DNA of 64,000 nucleotides from Polyangiaceae bacterium (GTDB taxonomy: Bacteria; Myxococcota_A; Polyangia; Polyangiales; Polyangiaceae): positions 1-64,000 of the forward strand of contig JABFXY010000066.1 of assembly GCA_013361525.1 (NCBI GenBank), given 5' to 3'. A program made the translations under genes and the position numbers. Of this stretch, positions 15,017 to 22,604 are shown piece after piece. Each line of letters starts with the position of its first letter. Position 1 is the first letter of the stretch. The notes under the pieces are model-generated. The model ran no database searches. It had not been told where the DNA came from and was given only the letters and a program-made list of their open reading frames with translations.

Positions 15017-15675
15017 TGCCTCCACCCTTTCGAGAACCCGCTCCCCCGTCTGGTCCTTGCGAAACAGTAGATCACCACGATGGCACTAGGCATTTAAAAA
15101 GCGACGCGCGCAAACAATAAGCAGACACCTTCAACCACATGAGATGAGGCCTAGAGGACGCACCACACAATGCGAGCCACAGGCACCCACGCGCCAACTG
15201 ACATTTCGGTCAGCTTCCAACGTGCCAGCCAGCTCGACGCAATTCGCCAAAGGTCGATGCGAGATGGCGCGACGAGGAACCATTCTGCTGACGATTCCGT
15301 CACCTGGGCACCGCACCTCGACGCTTGGCGCGCAGTCGCATCGCCGCGACCCTTCTTCGTAGACAACAATTCACTTTGACGCGTCAGCATCTCCGGCGAC
15401 CAACGTCCCTGCAAGCCGCTCCGATAACCGCGGCACAAGCGCAAAAGCGGAGCATCGACGCGAGAGCACCACGTAGCCAAAGAAACAGTCGCAGCCACCG
15501 AGTGCGCCAACGCGCAAGCGACATGCCTGTATCACAGCCACAGCGCACTCCAAGCACCAGTTTCATGAGCGCATGATGCTCAATGACCCGTGAGCGCAAC
15601 GCCAGTCATTTGGCGAGGCATTCACGATTCACGCCTCAAACTTGTCGGTCTGTTTCCACTCTGGAGAAATCACAA
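15017..15675. other. 659 nt without a confident gene
   Basis: The gap lies between the divergent lipoprotein genes at 15016 and 15676. It contains open frames on both strands, the largest a 119-codon minus-strand frame at 15151-15510 that is Arg/Trp/Ser-rich and has no ribosome site or recognisable domain. Base composition is lower in GC than the flanking core genes. It should hold the two divergent promoters. I see no RNA gene or repeat. Confidence 0.5.
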
Positions 15676-16335
15676 ATGAAGAACACCACTTCTATTGTAA
15701 CCATTTACACCATTTGCGCAGCTTTCGCCCTAAGCGGGTGCATCGAAGGCGAACCGGAAAGCGAAGGACTCCTCGACGACGAGGGCGACGAGGAAACCGG
15801 GGAGGTGAGCCAAGCGCTAGGCGAAATCGAGTGCGCGAGTAGCTTCAACACGGACCGGGTTACGCAGAATATCGCCTGGAACATCGGCACCACGTACTCA
15901 TACACAACCGCCGACGGGACCTACGGGTCGGACGTCGACAGCGGCGAGGACTGCAATAGCGCCATGAACGTACACTTCGAGGGTTACCCCACCGACGATG
16001 TCGCCATGACAGTAGAATACTCTGTTGCATGGGGCGACACGATGCCCAGCAATCAAACCGATTGCGAACGTGCGCACCTGAGTATTGGCGCGTATTACTT
16101 CGACGAATCAAATGGCGACGTATTTAGGCTCGTCTCTACGCGCGTCGTAGACGGCGAGTGGAGCGGGTCGTCGTGTTCGTTCCCGTCGACGCAGATCACG
16201 AAGTCCTTTGTGTGCGGAGGCATCCCCATGGATTGCCAGGGACAGCCCGTGGTCAGTGCGCGCGCCTACTACTCCAATTCGTTCGCCCCCCCAACCCACA
16301 AGCGGGTCACGGCACGGATCAAGCGCACTTCCTGA
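15676..16335 (+). CDS. Secreted lipoprotein of unknown function
   Basis: 219 aa from ATG 15676, with GGAG about 10 nt upstream. The signal peptide ends at lipobox ALSGC. An acidic stretch (EPESEGLLDDEGDEE) and TGEVSQALGEIEC follow, matching the acidic/QAL arrangement of the lipoprotein encoded at 14651-15016. The mature domain (about 50-219) has about seven Cys, many Tyr/Ser/Thr, and beta-rich segments (VAMTVEYSVAWGD, LSIGAYYFDESNGDVFRL), ending KRVTARIKRTS. I do not recognise the family. Confidence 0.7.
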   Translation: MKNTTSIVTIYTICAAFALSGCIEGEPESEGLLDDEGDEETGEVSQALGEIECASSFNTDRVTQNIAWNIGTTYSYTTADGTYGSDVDSGEDCNSAMNVHFEGYPTDDVAMTVEYSVAWGDTMPSNQTDCERAHLSIGAYYFDESNGDVFRLVSTRVVDGEWSGSSCSFPSTQITKSFVCGGIPMDCQGQPVVSARAYYSNSFAPPTHKRVTARIKRTS

Positions 16336-17724: not shown

Positions 17725-18255
17725 GTGGTCAAACCAAACATCAAGTATCTGATAGCCGGTGCCATCACCGGCGCACTGGGGGCAGCGCCCCTGACGAGCG
17801 CCGTCGCCCTCACTAATCGATACCACCACACACACTGCAAGACCGTCCCCGGGGACGTGTACAACTACGACGTCGTCGAAGGATACTCCTCGATCGAGTT
17901 CACGGGCGAGGTCGACATCGACTGCCCCATCAGCGAGACCTCGACATTCCAAAAGGCTAATGTGACGGGTGCGACCGTATTTTACCGTCAAACGGGCACC
18001 TCGCAGGTCGCCGCGAAGCTCTGCACCCTCGAAATCACGCCGACCAGCCCGTCGTCGAGCTCGACGTGCTCGAGCGCGCTGCTCAGCAACCCGGATCTGC
18101 AGGGCTACCTATCAATGTCGTTCTCCAGCTCCGCGTTCGCAACCTGGGATAACCACCCAAACGCGTATCCTTATATACACGTCACGCGTCCGTCGGCGAC
18201 CGGGCAACCGACCGGCACCAAGTTTTCGTTTCGCGGCATCGAGCTGACCTACTAG
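17725..18255 (+). CDS. Secreted four-Cys-family protein, first of tandem set
   Basis: 176 aa with a GTG start at 17725 (no obvious ribosome site, so the start is uncertain). The signal peptide (YLIAGAITGALGAAPLTSA) is cleaved near AVA. The mature domain has Cys in the order THC, DIDCPI, AAKLC and SSTC, with beta-type strands between them and IHVTRP near the end. The same C / CP / C / C order occurs in the next two genes, so the three look like tandem paralogues. Function unknown. Gene order and tiny gaps (9 nt, 4 nt overlap, 3 nt) indicate one operon through 19934. Confidence 0.7.
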   Translation: MVKPNIKYLIAGAITGALGAAPLTSAVALTNRYHHTHCKTVPGDVYNYDVVEGYSSIEFTGEVDIDCPISETSTFQKANVTGATVFYRQTGTSQVAAKLCTLEITPTSPSSSSTCSSALLSNPDLQGYLSMSFSSSAFATWDNHPNAYPYIHVTRPSATGQPTGTKFSFRGIELTY

Positions 18256-18264
18256 GGCGCAAAT

Positions 18265-18792
18265 ATGAAATATTCCTTGTTTTGCGCAGGCATTGGGCTC
18301 GCAACGACCTTTACACTCATCCAGCCATCCGCTGAAGCGGCGTTCCGGCGGGTAAGTGCCACCGAATGTGTCGCTGACGAATCGCCAGCAACCATCACCG
18401 CAAGATACAATCCGACGCTGGGCTTCTGGAGCACCAGCTCGCCTGGCACTGGCGTCATTTGCCCGCTCAATAATAGCGAAGCTCTGCCCAACGCCGACAT
18501 CGTGGCGAATGGAATCAAGGTCTACGTTCGCGACGACAGGTTCGGCACGTCGGGAGCCGACAACGATTTTACGGTAAAGGCTTGTAGGAGCAATTATCTC
18601 GTGGCGTCGTCATGCGGCACAGCCGCATCAACAGCGTACGATCCCGGGGACGTTACGCTGCTCCCCGATCCGACCGCGGTCAAGATAACGGGCGACCGGC
18701 AATGGGCATATCTCTATGTCGATTTGCCACAGAACGGAAATGTCGGCGGGGAGTTCAGCTGGTTCACGGGCTACAGGGTGGATTATCCATGA
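18265..18792 (+). CDS. Secreted four-Cys-family protein, second of tandem set
   Basis: 175 aa. Signal peptide MKYSLFCAGIGLATTFTLI, cleaved after AEA. Mature Cys pattern: SATEC, GVICPLNNSE, VKACRSN and SSCGTAAS. The last half (WAYLYVDLPQNG) matches the third gene's (LAYVSVQFPGD). It is predicted to be a disulfide-bonded extracellular or periplasmic beta protein without enzymatic motifs. Its stop overlaps the next ATG (ATGA). Confidence 0.75.
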   Translation: MKYSLFCAGIGLATTFTLIQPSAEAAFRRVSATECVADESPATITARYNPTLGFWSTSSPGTGVICPLNNSEALPNADIVANGIKVYVRDDRFGTSGADNDFTVKACRSNYLVASSCGTAASTAYDPGDVTLLPDPTAVKITGDRQWAYLYVDLPQNGNVGGEFSWFTGYRVDYP

Positions 18793-19301
18793 AAAACCAA
18801 CGAATCAATGCCGCCTTCTTTGCTTGCGGGGTCGTCGCGGCGATCGTTGCCTTCATTCCTCAAACCGGACACGCCTTGTACAAGCGCGTTTTGCCGTGGG
18901 AATGCCGCCTCGCACCAACGTCGAACACGACGCTGGTTCGGTGGTCCAAGGGAATGAGCCTACTCGAAGCGACCGCCGGAGAGTTCGCAATGGCGTATTG
19001 CCCGTACACCTCGGATCCGGACCTGCCCCTGAGCAGCGTTTCGTCGATCGAAGTCAATGTCGTCGACATCTCGCCGGGCCTCTATGCGGAGTTCGCGGCG
19101 AAGGCGTGCGTCACCCGATCCAACTCGACCGGCGGAGGCGCCTGCGGAACCCAGGCAACTAGCTCGTCGACCGGAGATCAGTACATCAGCGTCAGCCCGT
19201 CGGTGTGGAACAGCAATTCGACCGGTCTGGCATATGTGTCCGTTCAGTTTCCGGGCGACGACGAGGTGGGTGACATCTTGCGTGGCATCGAAGTCGAGTA
19301 G
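18789..19301 (+). CDS. Secreted four-Cys-family protein, third of tandem set
   Basis: 170 aa from ATG 18789 in an ATGA overlap. Signal peptide (RINAAFFACGVVAAIVAF), cleaved near GHA. The mature pattern PWEC, MAYCPYTSD, AKACVTRSN and GGACGTQ parallels the second gene (TEC, ICP, KAC, SSCGT). The protein ends with VQFPGDDEVGDILRGIEVE. A diverged tandem duplicate, function unknown. The fourth gene begins 3 nt later. Confidence 0.75.
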   Translation: MKNQRINAAFFACGVVAAIVAFIPQTGHALYKRVLPWECRLAPTSNTTLVRWSKGMSLLEATAGEFAMAYCPYTSDPDLPLSSVSSIEVNVVDISPGLYAEFAAKACVTRSNSTGGGACGTQATSSSTGDQYISVSPSVWNSNSTGLAYVSVQFPGDDEVGDILRGIEVE

Positions 19302-19304
19302 GTC

Positions 19305-19934
19305 GTGGCCGGAAAAGTCACAAGCGTCGCTCTCGGCGCGGTTACAGGAGCGATCCTGGTTACCGCGTTCAACTACCTACTCTCCCGTGGAGGGAGTTCT
19401 CCGACCTCGGCGGCAGCTCAGACGACCACCGCCGAGGAGGTCGACGCACCCGTTCAGAAGCGGCCAAATCGTCGACACCAGGGCTCCGCCGCAGAACCGG
19501 ACCCCGCCCCTGACGACGAGCCAGACGATTCCGTGGAGGCCCTCGCGAAGCTGAGGCAAGCTTTTGCCGCGAAGCTGAAAGCGCACGCTGAGTCGTCCTC
19601 GCGCGAAGGGTGGAGTCAGCAAACGGCGAAGGATTTCGAGCTCGATTTCTCGGAGGCGTGCGGGGAACAGTGCGCCGTCTCGAAGAGCGACTGTCGATAC
19701 GAGACCTGCGTCGTCACTGTAGGGTTCGATTCACTCGATGCCGCAATCTCGGTACACCCGGCGCTCTTGCACAAGTCCTACCGGGTGAACTGTGCAGTCG
19801 AGGTCGTCCTCCCGGAAGCGGCTCCAAACACAAAGGTCGAGGCAAGCTTCTTGCTGGATTGTCGAAAGATTCTCAATGGCGAGATCGATCAGGAGGGCCG
19901 TCCCCAGGCCTCGGCAGAGGTGACACCCGAGTAG
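19305..19934 (+). CDS. Membrane-anchored protein with soluble Cys-containing domain
   Basis: 209 aa, GTG start. One N-terminal transmembrane helix (VALGAVTGAILVTAFNYLL, about 8-26), then a Ser/Thr/Asp-rich linker (about 30-75) and a soluble domain (about 78-209) with five Cys (CGEQCAVSKSDCRYETC and two later). It lacks the four-Cys-family layout but is the last gene of that operon, so it may anchor or chaperone those proteins; this is inference from context only. Confidence 0.65.
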   Translation: MAGKVTSVALGAVTGAILVTAFNYLLSRGGSSPTSAAAQTTTAEEVDAPVQKRPNRRHQGSAAEPDPAPDDEPDDSVEALAKLRQAFAAKLKAHAESSSREGWSQQTAKDFELDFSEACGEQCAVSKSDCRYETCVVTVGFDSLDAAISVHPALLHKSYRVNCAVEVVLPEAAPNTKVEASFLLDCRKILNGEIDQEGRPQASAEVTPE

Positions 19935-20080: not shown

Positions 20081-22477
20081 TCACTGCCGATACTTAATGA
20101 GCGCGACGTCCGTATTGCCGGCGGCCGTCAGGCTGCCACCGCCGAAATTGACGGAGTTACCGAAGGTAGCAACGGCGAACACGTCCCCGCACGAGCTCTG
20201 ATCCGCACCCCAAAAGAGTTCGCCACCGCTGCTACCAAACTTCTTCGACCACTGAAGGTCACCGCTCGGGTTGATCTTGAAGAGAAATGCATCGTCGCCA
20301 CCCACGGCTGGCGTGGCGGCGCCGGTGAAGTAAAGCGTCCCACGATAGCTCCCGGCTATCACGACGGCATCATCGACCCCGACGTTCATCGACTTTGTCA
20401 AGGCAGCATCCGTACAGTTAAACTTCGCGCTATCGATGAACGCGCCGGAAGCGCTGTACTTGACAAGAAGAAGGTCATATCCAGTGGAAGTCGGCGAGAT
20501 ATCCGTCCCCGGTTGACCATCTACGTTTACCGCCGCCTCGAAGGCCCCGGCCACCCAGACGCTTCCGTCCGAGAGTACGCCTGCTGCAGCAGCGAACTCA
20601 TCGCTCGTGGATTGAATTGCCCGCGTCCACAGATGAGCGCCGTTGGGATCGAACCGAACCACATATCCATCGGAGCCCCCTGCAACATTGATGGTTGTCC
20701 CGCCGAAGCTCAGGTTCGTCGAGAGCGCTCCGGCCATGATCAGATCGCCATTCGGCGCCGCCGCCAAACTTCCACCGGAGTTGTCGTTGCTGTCCCCGAA
20801 GCGTTTGCTCCACAAGTGGTTGCCGAGCGAATCAAACCGAGCAACGAACATGTCGTCGCCACCGGCGCTCACGAGATTCTGCCCGCCGAGATTGATTGTA
20901 CCTTCAAAGCGGCCAGAAACAGCAACTCCATTGTCGGGCATGCGAACAACATCGGCGAGCTCATCGTTCAATGTACCACCAATAAGCTTCTTCCACGCCA
21001 ATGTATGGTTCAGATTGAACTTCGCAAGAAACCCGTCGCTGCCAACCGCCGTCAACGTAGCACCGGCGCCGAAGGCTTCGCTCGACCCAGAGCCTAGGCG
21101 GCCGGAAATGAGATAACCGTCGTCCAACCCGACGAGAGTCGTTGATACCTCCCCGCCTGCCCCGCCAAAGCCTTTCACGTTGAATCCATTTCCGGCGGAA
21201 TCATAGCGAGCGAGGGCCACGTCGAAGCCCTCGGCGGTTACCGTGGAGTTTCCCACTGTTAGCGTACCCCCAAAAGTCGACAGCAGCATGACGTCGCCAT
21301 TGGGGAGCTCGAGAATGTCTGGGTAGTAGTCCAGCGACTGGTTTCCGAGCGCCTTGCTCCAAACGTGGCTACCCGTGCACGGTGCACTGGCACCGTCGCA
21401 ATTCTGGTCACCGCTCTGAACGCAGGAGTCACAGGTCTGGGGGATCACTTCGCCGACGCACTCCCCCCACTTGTTGCCATCCACGGTGGCCTCGCACGTC
21501 GCGGTCCCACCATGGCAGATGCCCACATTTAGCGTCGCTTGATCATCCGTGTAGCAAGCATCCGTTTGGCCGAGCACGCAAATACATCCCGTACCGTCTT
21601 CGTCGACCAGACCGTCGCAGTCCTCGTCAAGACCGCTGGCCCCGGGGCCGCACGCCTCTCCTGTGGGCGTTACCTCGCCAACACAAACAGCGGCGTTGTT
21701 CTCACAATGCCATGTACCGCCAACGCACTTTCCAACGTTCTCCGTGCCCTGAACACCGGTATAACAACTCGCGCCTTCCTGATTCCAGTCGACGACGACA
21801 CCGTTGACGCACTCTCCACATCCCGATGTCGGGTCATCGTCATCGTCGATCTCGAGCTGGCCGCCTTCATCGCAGCTCGGCTTCAGGCAGTCGCCAGCAA
21901 TGTCTTTCACGGGCGCATCTTCGATGTTCGGCACCGACGACACCGAGCCCTCGTCGCAAACCGGGCTTGCGCAATCACCCGCCACGATGTCGACGGGCGG
22001 ATCGTCCGCGGGAGCGGACACGACAACACCTCCGTCACACGCCGGACTTACGCAGTCGCCGGGCGGGTCCTCGCCCGGGACATCGTTATCATTGGGGGCG
22101 GAGATGACATTGCCCTCCGCGTCACACGCCGGCGCGAGGCAGTCGCCAGGCGTTTCGTCAGCGGAGGCGTCCTCACTCGCCACGGCGACCACAACCTCGC
22201 CGTTGAGGTCGCAGACGTTGCGTTTGCAGTCGCCGACGCCAATCTCATCTACGATCGTGCCCTCGGCTTTCCACGCATAGGCACACGTCCCGTCGACGCA
22301 CTGGCCTTCTAGACACGGAGCGTCGGGCGAGTTGCAGGCGTCATCGGAGCCGCACTCGACCGTTTCGGGGAGGTCGAGAATCTGGCGGCACCCACCCGCG
22401 GGACCAACCATTGCCAACGAGACCAGAAGCGAGAGAGCTGCAGCGTTCGAACGACGAGCAGCACGGGATACGACCAT
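20081..22477 (-). CDS. Large lipoprotein: Cys repeats, MopE-like motif and beta-propeller repeats
   Basis: 798 aa from ATG 22477 (MVVSRAARRSNAAAL); longer frames precede the signal. Lipobox GPAGGC. Residues about 55-250 carry four tandem units with GDCxxPxCD (GDCLAPACD, GDCVSPACD, GDCASPVCD, GDCLKPSCD). Then come CYTGVQG and LDEDCDGLVDEDGTGC, the myxobacterial 'DEDCDG..DED' Ca-binding-type motif, and CTGSHVWSK. The last roughly 430 residues are 50-60 aa beta repeats (LWSKRFGDSND, AAAPNGDLIMAGALS, VVRFDPNGAHLW) as in SBBP/propeller proteins. Probably surface-exposed; no enzymatic site. Confidence 0.75.
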   Translation of the reverse strand: MVVSRAARRSNAAALSLLVSLAMVGPAGGCRQILDLPETVECGSDDACNSPDAPCLEGQCVDGTCAYAWKAEGTIVDEIGVGDCKRNVCDLNGEVVVAVASEDASADETPGDCLAPACDAEGNVISAPNDNDVPGEDPPGDCVSPACDGGVVVSAPADDPPVDIVAGDCASPVCDEGSVSSVPNIEDAPVKDIAGDCLKPSCDEGGQLEIDDDDDPTSGCGECVNGVVVDWNQEGASCYTGVQGTENVGKCVGGTWHCENNAAVCVGEVTPTGEACGPGASGLDEDCDGLVDEDGTGCICVLGQTDACYTDDQATLNVGICHGGTATCEATVDGNKWGECVGEVIPQTCDSCVQSGDQNCDGASAPCTGSHVWSKALGNQSLDYYPDILELPNGDVMLLSTFGGTLTVGNSTVTAEGFDVALARYDSAGNGFNVKGFGGAGGEVSTTLVGLDDGYLISGRLGSGSSEAFGAGATLTAVGSDGFLAKFNLNHTLAWKKLIGGTLNDELADVVRMPDNGVAVSGRFEGTINLGGQNLVSAGGDDMFVARFDSLGNHLWSKRFGDSNDNSGGSLAAAPNGDLIMAGALSTNLSFGGTTINVAGGSDGYVVRFDPNGAHLWTRAIQSTSDEFAAAAGVLSDGSVWVAGAFEAAVNVDGQPGTDISPTSTGYDLLLVKYSASGAFIDSAKFNCTDAALTKSMNVGVDDAVVIAGSYRGTLYFTGAATPAVGGDDAFLFKINPSGDLQWSKKFGSSGGELFWGADQSSCGDVFAVATFGNSVNFGGGSLTAAGNTDVALIKYRQ

Positions 22478-22604
22478 TAGCGGAAGGTTACTCGCGATGC
22501 CGAGAGTTTTGCGAGGGCCGACCGGCAAAAGACCGGCCCGGCTATCCGTTTTGGGCAAGCCCGGATTGGGTGAGTTGCACGAGCAGTCGGCGAGCAAATG
22601 CAAA

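Follow-up and report, generated by a model that had tools for sequence, protein, structure and literature searches.

Polymorphic toxin–immunity pairs join a diverse exported protein to the gene of a membrane-bound partner and are patchily distributed. Among the membrane-anchored secretion chaperones, the lipase foldase Lif is helical. The genes of the type II secretion chaperones CpaB and LipB stand beside that of their effector; both proteins have a transmembrane helix at the N-terminus, and secretion of the effector depends on them (PMC4713064). Here we compare with these systems a four-gene operon found in a 64,000-nucleotide stretch of DNA from a Polyangiaceae bacterium, the whole of which is called the window below. 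Throughout, S denotes the family of exported proteins of ~175 amino acids encoded by the first three genes (A, B and C), and M denotes the family of the fourth (D).

The four-gene operon and its products

Genes A to D lie head to tail on the forward strand, separated by 9 nt, −4 nt (an ATGA overlap) and 3 nt; these gaps and the gene coordinates are as a preliminary description of the locus had given them. Genes A (17725–18255, 176 aa, GTG start), B (18265–18792, 175 aa) and C (18789–19301, 170 aa) each encode an exported four-Cys protein of the S family, type I (defined below). We place the start of C at the ATG at 18789 and not at 18612, the longer mechanical ORF start, because a signal peptide is present only from 18789. 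Judged by eye and by hydropathy, all three N-termini show a hydrophobic stretch followed by a small-residue site, the mark of a signal peptide, which in A ends near SAVA. The cysteines of the mature parts fall at residues 38, 67, 100 and 115 of A, 35, 66, 107 and 117 of B, and 39, 71, 107 and 119 of C; B and C each carry one further Cys within the signal peptide.

Gene D (19305–19934, forward strand) encodes the M protein, 209 aa long, with an N-terminal anchor, a Pro/Ala-rich linker and a C-terminal Cys domain. Hydropathy places its hydrophobic stretch at residues 8–26 (maximum 1.86) and predicts a single N-terminal transmembrane helix, in agreement with the earlier view of D as a membrane-anchored partner. 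Cys 130, 135, 163 and 186 of the C-terminal domain are the four conserved Cys of the M family, and the predicted topology together with these invariant cysteines suggests that this region lies in the periplasm.

GC content is 0.60 across the cassette (0.57 in B) as compared to 0.656 for the window. Low third-position GC is also seen in several surrounding genes between 13.5 and 22.6 kb, as an accessory stretch might show. Upstream lies a 250-aa lipoprotein-like ORF with several Cys (15583–16335), and a convergent gene (20081–22603) encodes an 840-aa protein with repeated short Cys motifs at its N-terminus followed by repeats; neither has a Pfam match at E 0.01. A scan for promoters and terminators gave nothing informative.

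The preliminary description had read A, B and C as duplicates that share a Cys order and little overall identity. Pairwise BLASTP connects B with C (E = 1e-7, 27% identity over 161 columns) and A with C (E = 0.002) and gives no direct match between A and B; overall identities among the three are 19–28%. A profile of 22 relatives, from which the window rows were excluded, retrieved A, B and C from the 715 window ORFs at E values of 2.6e-15, 8.4e-17 and 1.7e-23, and no further window ORF below E 0.29. The corresponding scores of 53, 57 and 80 bits compare with best scores of 14.9–20.7 bits in Cys-preserving shuffles (500 per protein). This test is strong and not wholly independent, because the relatives were first collected with profiles seeded by A–C. 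The search with a profile of the three genes that had been proposed at the outset was carried out across 108 genomes of the same family, and the three-row profile found convincing relatives elsewhere (best E 1.7e-8). Five relatives that were read shared this build, and C, CP, C and C did not vary across 8/8 rows; each of the 23 type I rows counted has the four Cys. A loss of the Cys correspondence among homologues, which had been named as one outcome that would refute the proposed family, did not happen; in type II relatives the fourth Cys is placed elsewhere. Together, these comparisons support the reading of A, B and C as diverged duplicates of one secreted family, encoded in one operon. A single-sequence search with B in 59 genomes returned nothing convincing besides B itself (one match at E 0.006 was rejected, as it lay within an unrelated ORF), and a plasmid search with C returned no match.

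Outside the cysteines, few S positions are near-fixed and none of these looks catalytic; at C residues 140, 147, 149 and 167, most rows (17–20 of 23) have an aromatic residue or His. The duplicates had also been described as fast-diverging. Taken to mean positive selection, this was not borne out: between close Polyangium-type orthologues of one genus, dN/dS is about 0.35–0.47 for S and 0.31–0.45 for M, and it reaches 0.51 between the S genes of two further loci (L092 and L093). S and M are under ordinary purifying selection in close orthologues.

The impression that these proteins belong to no known family was accurate for A–D, for which Pfam, NCBIfam and PADLOC offered no covering family. 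Pfam had no match to A–D up to E 1, and PADLOC none among eight proteins. Only scattered weak matches to single members came from running Pfam on type I S, M and type II S members and NCBIfam on type I S and M; all were set aside, the best being DUF4307 (4.6e-4, in two members). In Pfam searches at E up to 0.1, no carbohydrate-binding-module (CBM) model matched any member of the two S alignments (type I and type II), the Pfam matches of 24 M alignment members included no T2SSM, PilO or GspL-type model, and M showed no sequence match to known chaperones. PDB sequence searches with the S and M profiles gave no match up to E 1, and a literature search found no description of the S+M pair. The sole PHROGs match below 0.01, a Zot-like match on D (E 0.0022), covers residues 7–132, that is, anchor and linker, and was taken as compositional.

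S and M are a conserved gene pair

The gene beside one S relative (L013) proved homologous to D (BLASTP 2e-7), and a two-row D profile matched 25 of the 108 genomes of the family, many of the matches adjoining four-Cys S matches. With iterated profiles on fetched stretches, M was found within 600 nt in 26/28 S-seeded loci. Weak rows had been excluded before this count: L009 and L016–L019, which were not S when read as ORFs; L020–L025, on E-value alone; and L114 in genome G061 (E 0.007, internal stop), which had no match to the final profile. Forty-three of 46 S genes lie near an M, all of them on M's strand; S precedes M in 35 cases and follows it in 8. The three others are gene A of the window, separated from its M by B and C, and the S genes of L092 and L093; these last two are of type II and come from one genus, and no M could be detected next to either. 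Counted from the M side (n = 61 loci), S is present in 40, the upstream side is cut by the end of the fetched stretch in 9, and 12 have no S. The number of M genes at contig ends at first looked odd, and 9/61 seems ordinary, in our judgement, for fragmented assemblies.

A blind check added two S genes, at G202:C206 and G284:C169, each with an adjoining M in a separate whole-genome search; both loci were outside all profiles, and two other loci of G284 had been used in them. A third new S match (G308) was weak and had no M. In genome G181 the whole S–M unit is tandemly duplicated (L089, 5731–8271; 88% over 1212 columns), the second M being in two open frames. S+M is thus well shown to be a conserved gene pair of two unnamed families. 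The unit is this pair and not the triplet: most loci have one S per M, and the three S genes with one M in the window are a local expansion. D is itself a conserved partner, and for this reason matters more than the preliminary description had suggested. A mirror-tree comparison of S and M divergence gave r = 0.67 with all 17 pairs and r = 0.15 after thinning of near-identical Polyangium-type rows, a value reached in 244 of 2000 permutations; with r only 0.15 once close rows were thinned, we do not use it as evidence.

Two types of S can be told apart by the fourth Cys, which lies ~12 residues after the third in type I and near the end of the protein, in a YxLxCxxP strand, in type II; the two types are homologous (hhalign E 4.3e-15). 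M likewise falls into two classes, with four conserved Cys or two. Type I S accompanies four-Cys M at 20 loci and type II S accompanies two-Cys M at 17, with no crossed combination in the 37 classifiable locus pairings; 5 of the 43 pairs were unclassifiable, four by S type and one because its M is broken into two open frames. Fisher's test of this matching gives 6e-11, which is not a true probability, since the loci share ancestry. One genome (G058) carries one cassette of each type, both matched, which argues that the match is not merely a species effect.

S was found in 19/183 genomes of the order (12/111 among those of good quality) and in neither of the two further genomes of its genus. 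Sampling of the phylum gave S in 11/377 genomes and M in 21/377, type II S in 4/188 and type II M in 9/188; all of these counts, those for the order included, are lower bounds because few candidates per genome were scored (8–9 in the 377-genome samples, 19 and 15 in the 188-genome searches). The carriers that have names are Polyangium sp. 15x6 and Polyangium sp. 6x1, together with several MAGs of Myxococcota or Deltaproteobacteria.

The genome of the window itself holds, on contig C16 (L197, 4169–4840), a lipoprotein-like protein with an M-type domain and no recognised S adjoining. Together with the 12 of 61 M loci without S, this copy suggests that the M domain is not only a helper of S and has wider uses. 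At L174 (5043–6926), two consecutive M-type genes have lipoprotein-like starts instead of a plain transmembrane helix. At five of the 12 M loci without S (L109, L111, L174, L175 and L177), M adjoins, by eye, another small exported Cys-bearing protein with no detectable homology to S. These neighbours may represent additional S types that keep the fold; for the one at L111, hhalign against type II S gave a probability of 2–5%, too low to establish homology.

Like polymorphic toxin–immunity pairs, S and M combine a diverse exported protein with a membrane-bound partner in a patchy distribution, and S might then be a secreted or contact-delivered antibacterial acting in the envelope, with M as the membrane-anchored periplasmic immunity protein of its producer. 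This reading would accommodate the tight pairing with S usually first, the matched types, the presence in only 19/183 genomes of the order and 0/2 of the genus, the low GC of the cassette relative to the window, and M genes without S, as expected of orphan immunity genes. The S–M pairs differ from such systems, however, in that one M serves three S proteins of just 19–28% identity, which speaks against strict immunity pairs, and in the ordinary purifying selection on close orthologues of both S and M. Moreover, S has a plain Sec signal and, by eye, no delivery domain, its few near-fixed positions outside the cysteines do not look catalytic, and no toxin domain was found (no Pfam match to A–D; no PADLOC match among eight proteins). 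We regard a toxin–immunity function as quite unlikely.

Predicted folds and the role of M

We modelled mature C from an alignment of its own sequence and six other rows, A and B among them. The model is an all-beta jelly-roll sandwich (pLDDT 84.4, pTM 0.82). The Foldseek list was headed by CBM86, CBM11, CBM16 and a phage tailspike domain, with no E value below 1.3e-3, and VIA gave Z scores up to 11.5 over residues 1–140, with Z ≥ 8 in 331/985 chains. The preliminary description had asked whether the three proteins share one fold: C has a complete jelly-roll model, and for A and B the same fold is predicted by homology, as rows of the C alignment. The VIA list also includes jelly-roll domains from proteins that have no known sugar-binding role, so that the fold of C is clear and its ligand is not; a jelly-roll by itself is no proof that sugars are bound. 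Of the roles first suggested for these proteins (contact, adhesion or toxin delivery), contact and adhesion fit the lectin-like predicted fold, whereas toxin delivery has no direct support.

The modelled part of D (19515–19931, forward strand) has the order alpha-beta-beta-alpha-beta-beta (pLDDT 88.5, pTM 0.79). Its nearest neighbours are XcpY/GspL, PilO and PulM, with a Foldseek E of 0.009 at best, and EpsL and EpsM are further fold neighbours; the VIA Z of about 6 is equalled by unrelated chains such as phage neck and ribosomal proteins. The model thus predicts a ferredoxin-like arrangement, which is not proof of kinship with GspL, GspM or PilO.

These neighbours raise the possibility that M serves a type II secretion system or type IV pilus as an accessory platform subunit of the GspM/PilO kind, with S as substrate or tip protein. 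M resembles GspL, GspM and PilO in its predicted bitopic architecture and in the predicted order of its secondary structure, and its architecture of short N-tail, one helix, linker and ferredoxin-like domain would suit such a part. It differs from them in its invariant Cys and in its linkage to S outside any recognised secretion operon: among the genes listed around the cassettes at 16 loci, none was recognised as a secretion or pilus gene, as judged only by the first residues of each protein. The fold scores are modest and common to unrelated chains, M has no Pfam T2SSM or PilO match, and S shows, by eye, a cleavable signal peptide and no prepilin motif. A part in such a machine appears very unlikely.

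Alternatively, S and M could form a lectin system of the cell surface, with M not a chaperone but a receptor or retention anchor that holds S at the inner membrane or senses ligand-bound S. The lectin-like predicted jelly-roll of S and the anchor and long linker of M are consistent with this, as are the lipoprotein-like M-type proteins of L174 and L197, where attachment seems to outweigh the mode of attaching. Against it, few M residues are on the presumed cytoplasmic side, leaving no obvious signalling output, and display of S beyond the outer membrane is impossible from an inner-membrane anchor. We consider a receptor or anchor role unlikely.

The reading that we favour, tentatively and at somewhat less than an even chance, is by analogy with CpaB or Lif: S would be exported and lectin-like, and M would act as a membrane-anchored chaperone or escort dedicated to it. 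In favour of it are the gene pairing, the matched Cys types, the two predicted folds and the precedent of CpaB and LipB; against it count the missing sequence match of M to any chaperone, a fold class unlike that of CpaB, the M-type domains without S, the two S loci with no detectable M, the weakness of the GspL/PilO-like matches and a divergence of S and M that is not clearly correlated after thinning. On this proposal, the operon would represent a two-gene cassette that occurs across Myxococcota, expanded here to three S genes with one M. S would be a Sec-exported, disulfide-stabilised single jelly-roll of the carbohydrate-binding-module or lectin type, and a single N-terminal helix would hold M in the inner membrane, its ferredoxin-like domain facing the periplasm. 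S would cross via Sec unfolded into the periplasm, where M may bind it and either aid its disulfide-bonded folding or pass it to an outer-membrane exporter, for example a type II secretion system; two secretin genes in the genome of the window suggest that an exit route may exist. Released outside the cell, S could bind glycans of matrix, kin or prey. Several S paralogues served by one M would allow S to diversify while M stays the same. We infer the physical binding of S and M, the chaperone role, the export route and the binding of sugars.

Extended further, the chaperone proposal would make of the pairs a Myxococcota-wide recognition system of small, diversifying secreted lectin-like domains that distinguishes glycans of matrix, kin or prey. 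Each domain would be matured by a dedicated membrane-tethered partner, in a new pairing of fold families whose disulfide layouts change in step (types I and II). We think it unlikely that the pairs amount to this.

Comparison with described systems

Two unnamed families, with folds predicted for both, are here linked by gene pairing throughout a phylum noted for its predatory and social bacteria. Pairs of 'hypothetical proteins' in many myxobacterial genomes are thereby reduced to one testable question, namely whether M is the chaperone, the immunity protein or the receptor of S. Should M prove to be a chaperone, the membrane-anchored chaperones of secretion would include a new, ferredoxin-like class; should S prove to bind glycans, a family of small secreted lectins would be added to the myxobacterial repertoire.

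On the side of M, the likeness to CpaB, LipB and Lif lies in a gene adjoining that of an exported partner, a predicted N-terminal transmembrane helix and a bulk that is predicted to be periplasmic, following the definition given in PMC4713064. M shows no sequence similarity that we could find to CpaB, LipB or Lif. Its predicted ferredoxin-like domain differs from the helical build of Lif. For CpaB an SRPBCC-type domain is described, again unlike that of M (PMC4713064). On the side of S, the whole predicted fold (residues 1–140, VIA Z up to 11.5) resembles CBM22, CBM4, CBM16, CBM86 and the PP2 phloem lectin, at 6–13% identity in the matches listed, with Foldseek E no better than 1.3e-3 and no Pfam CBM match. 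S further differs from these modules in its two predicted disulfides and in being a free-standing protein where they are attached to enzymes.
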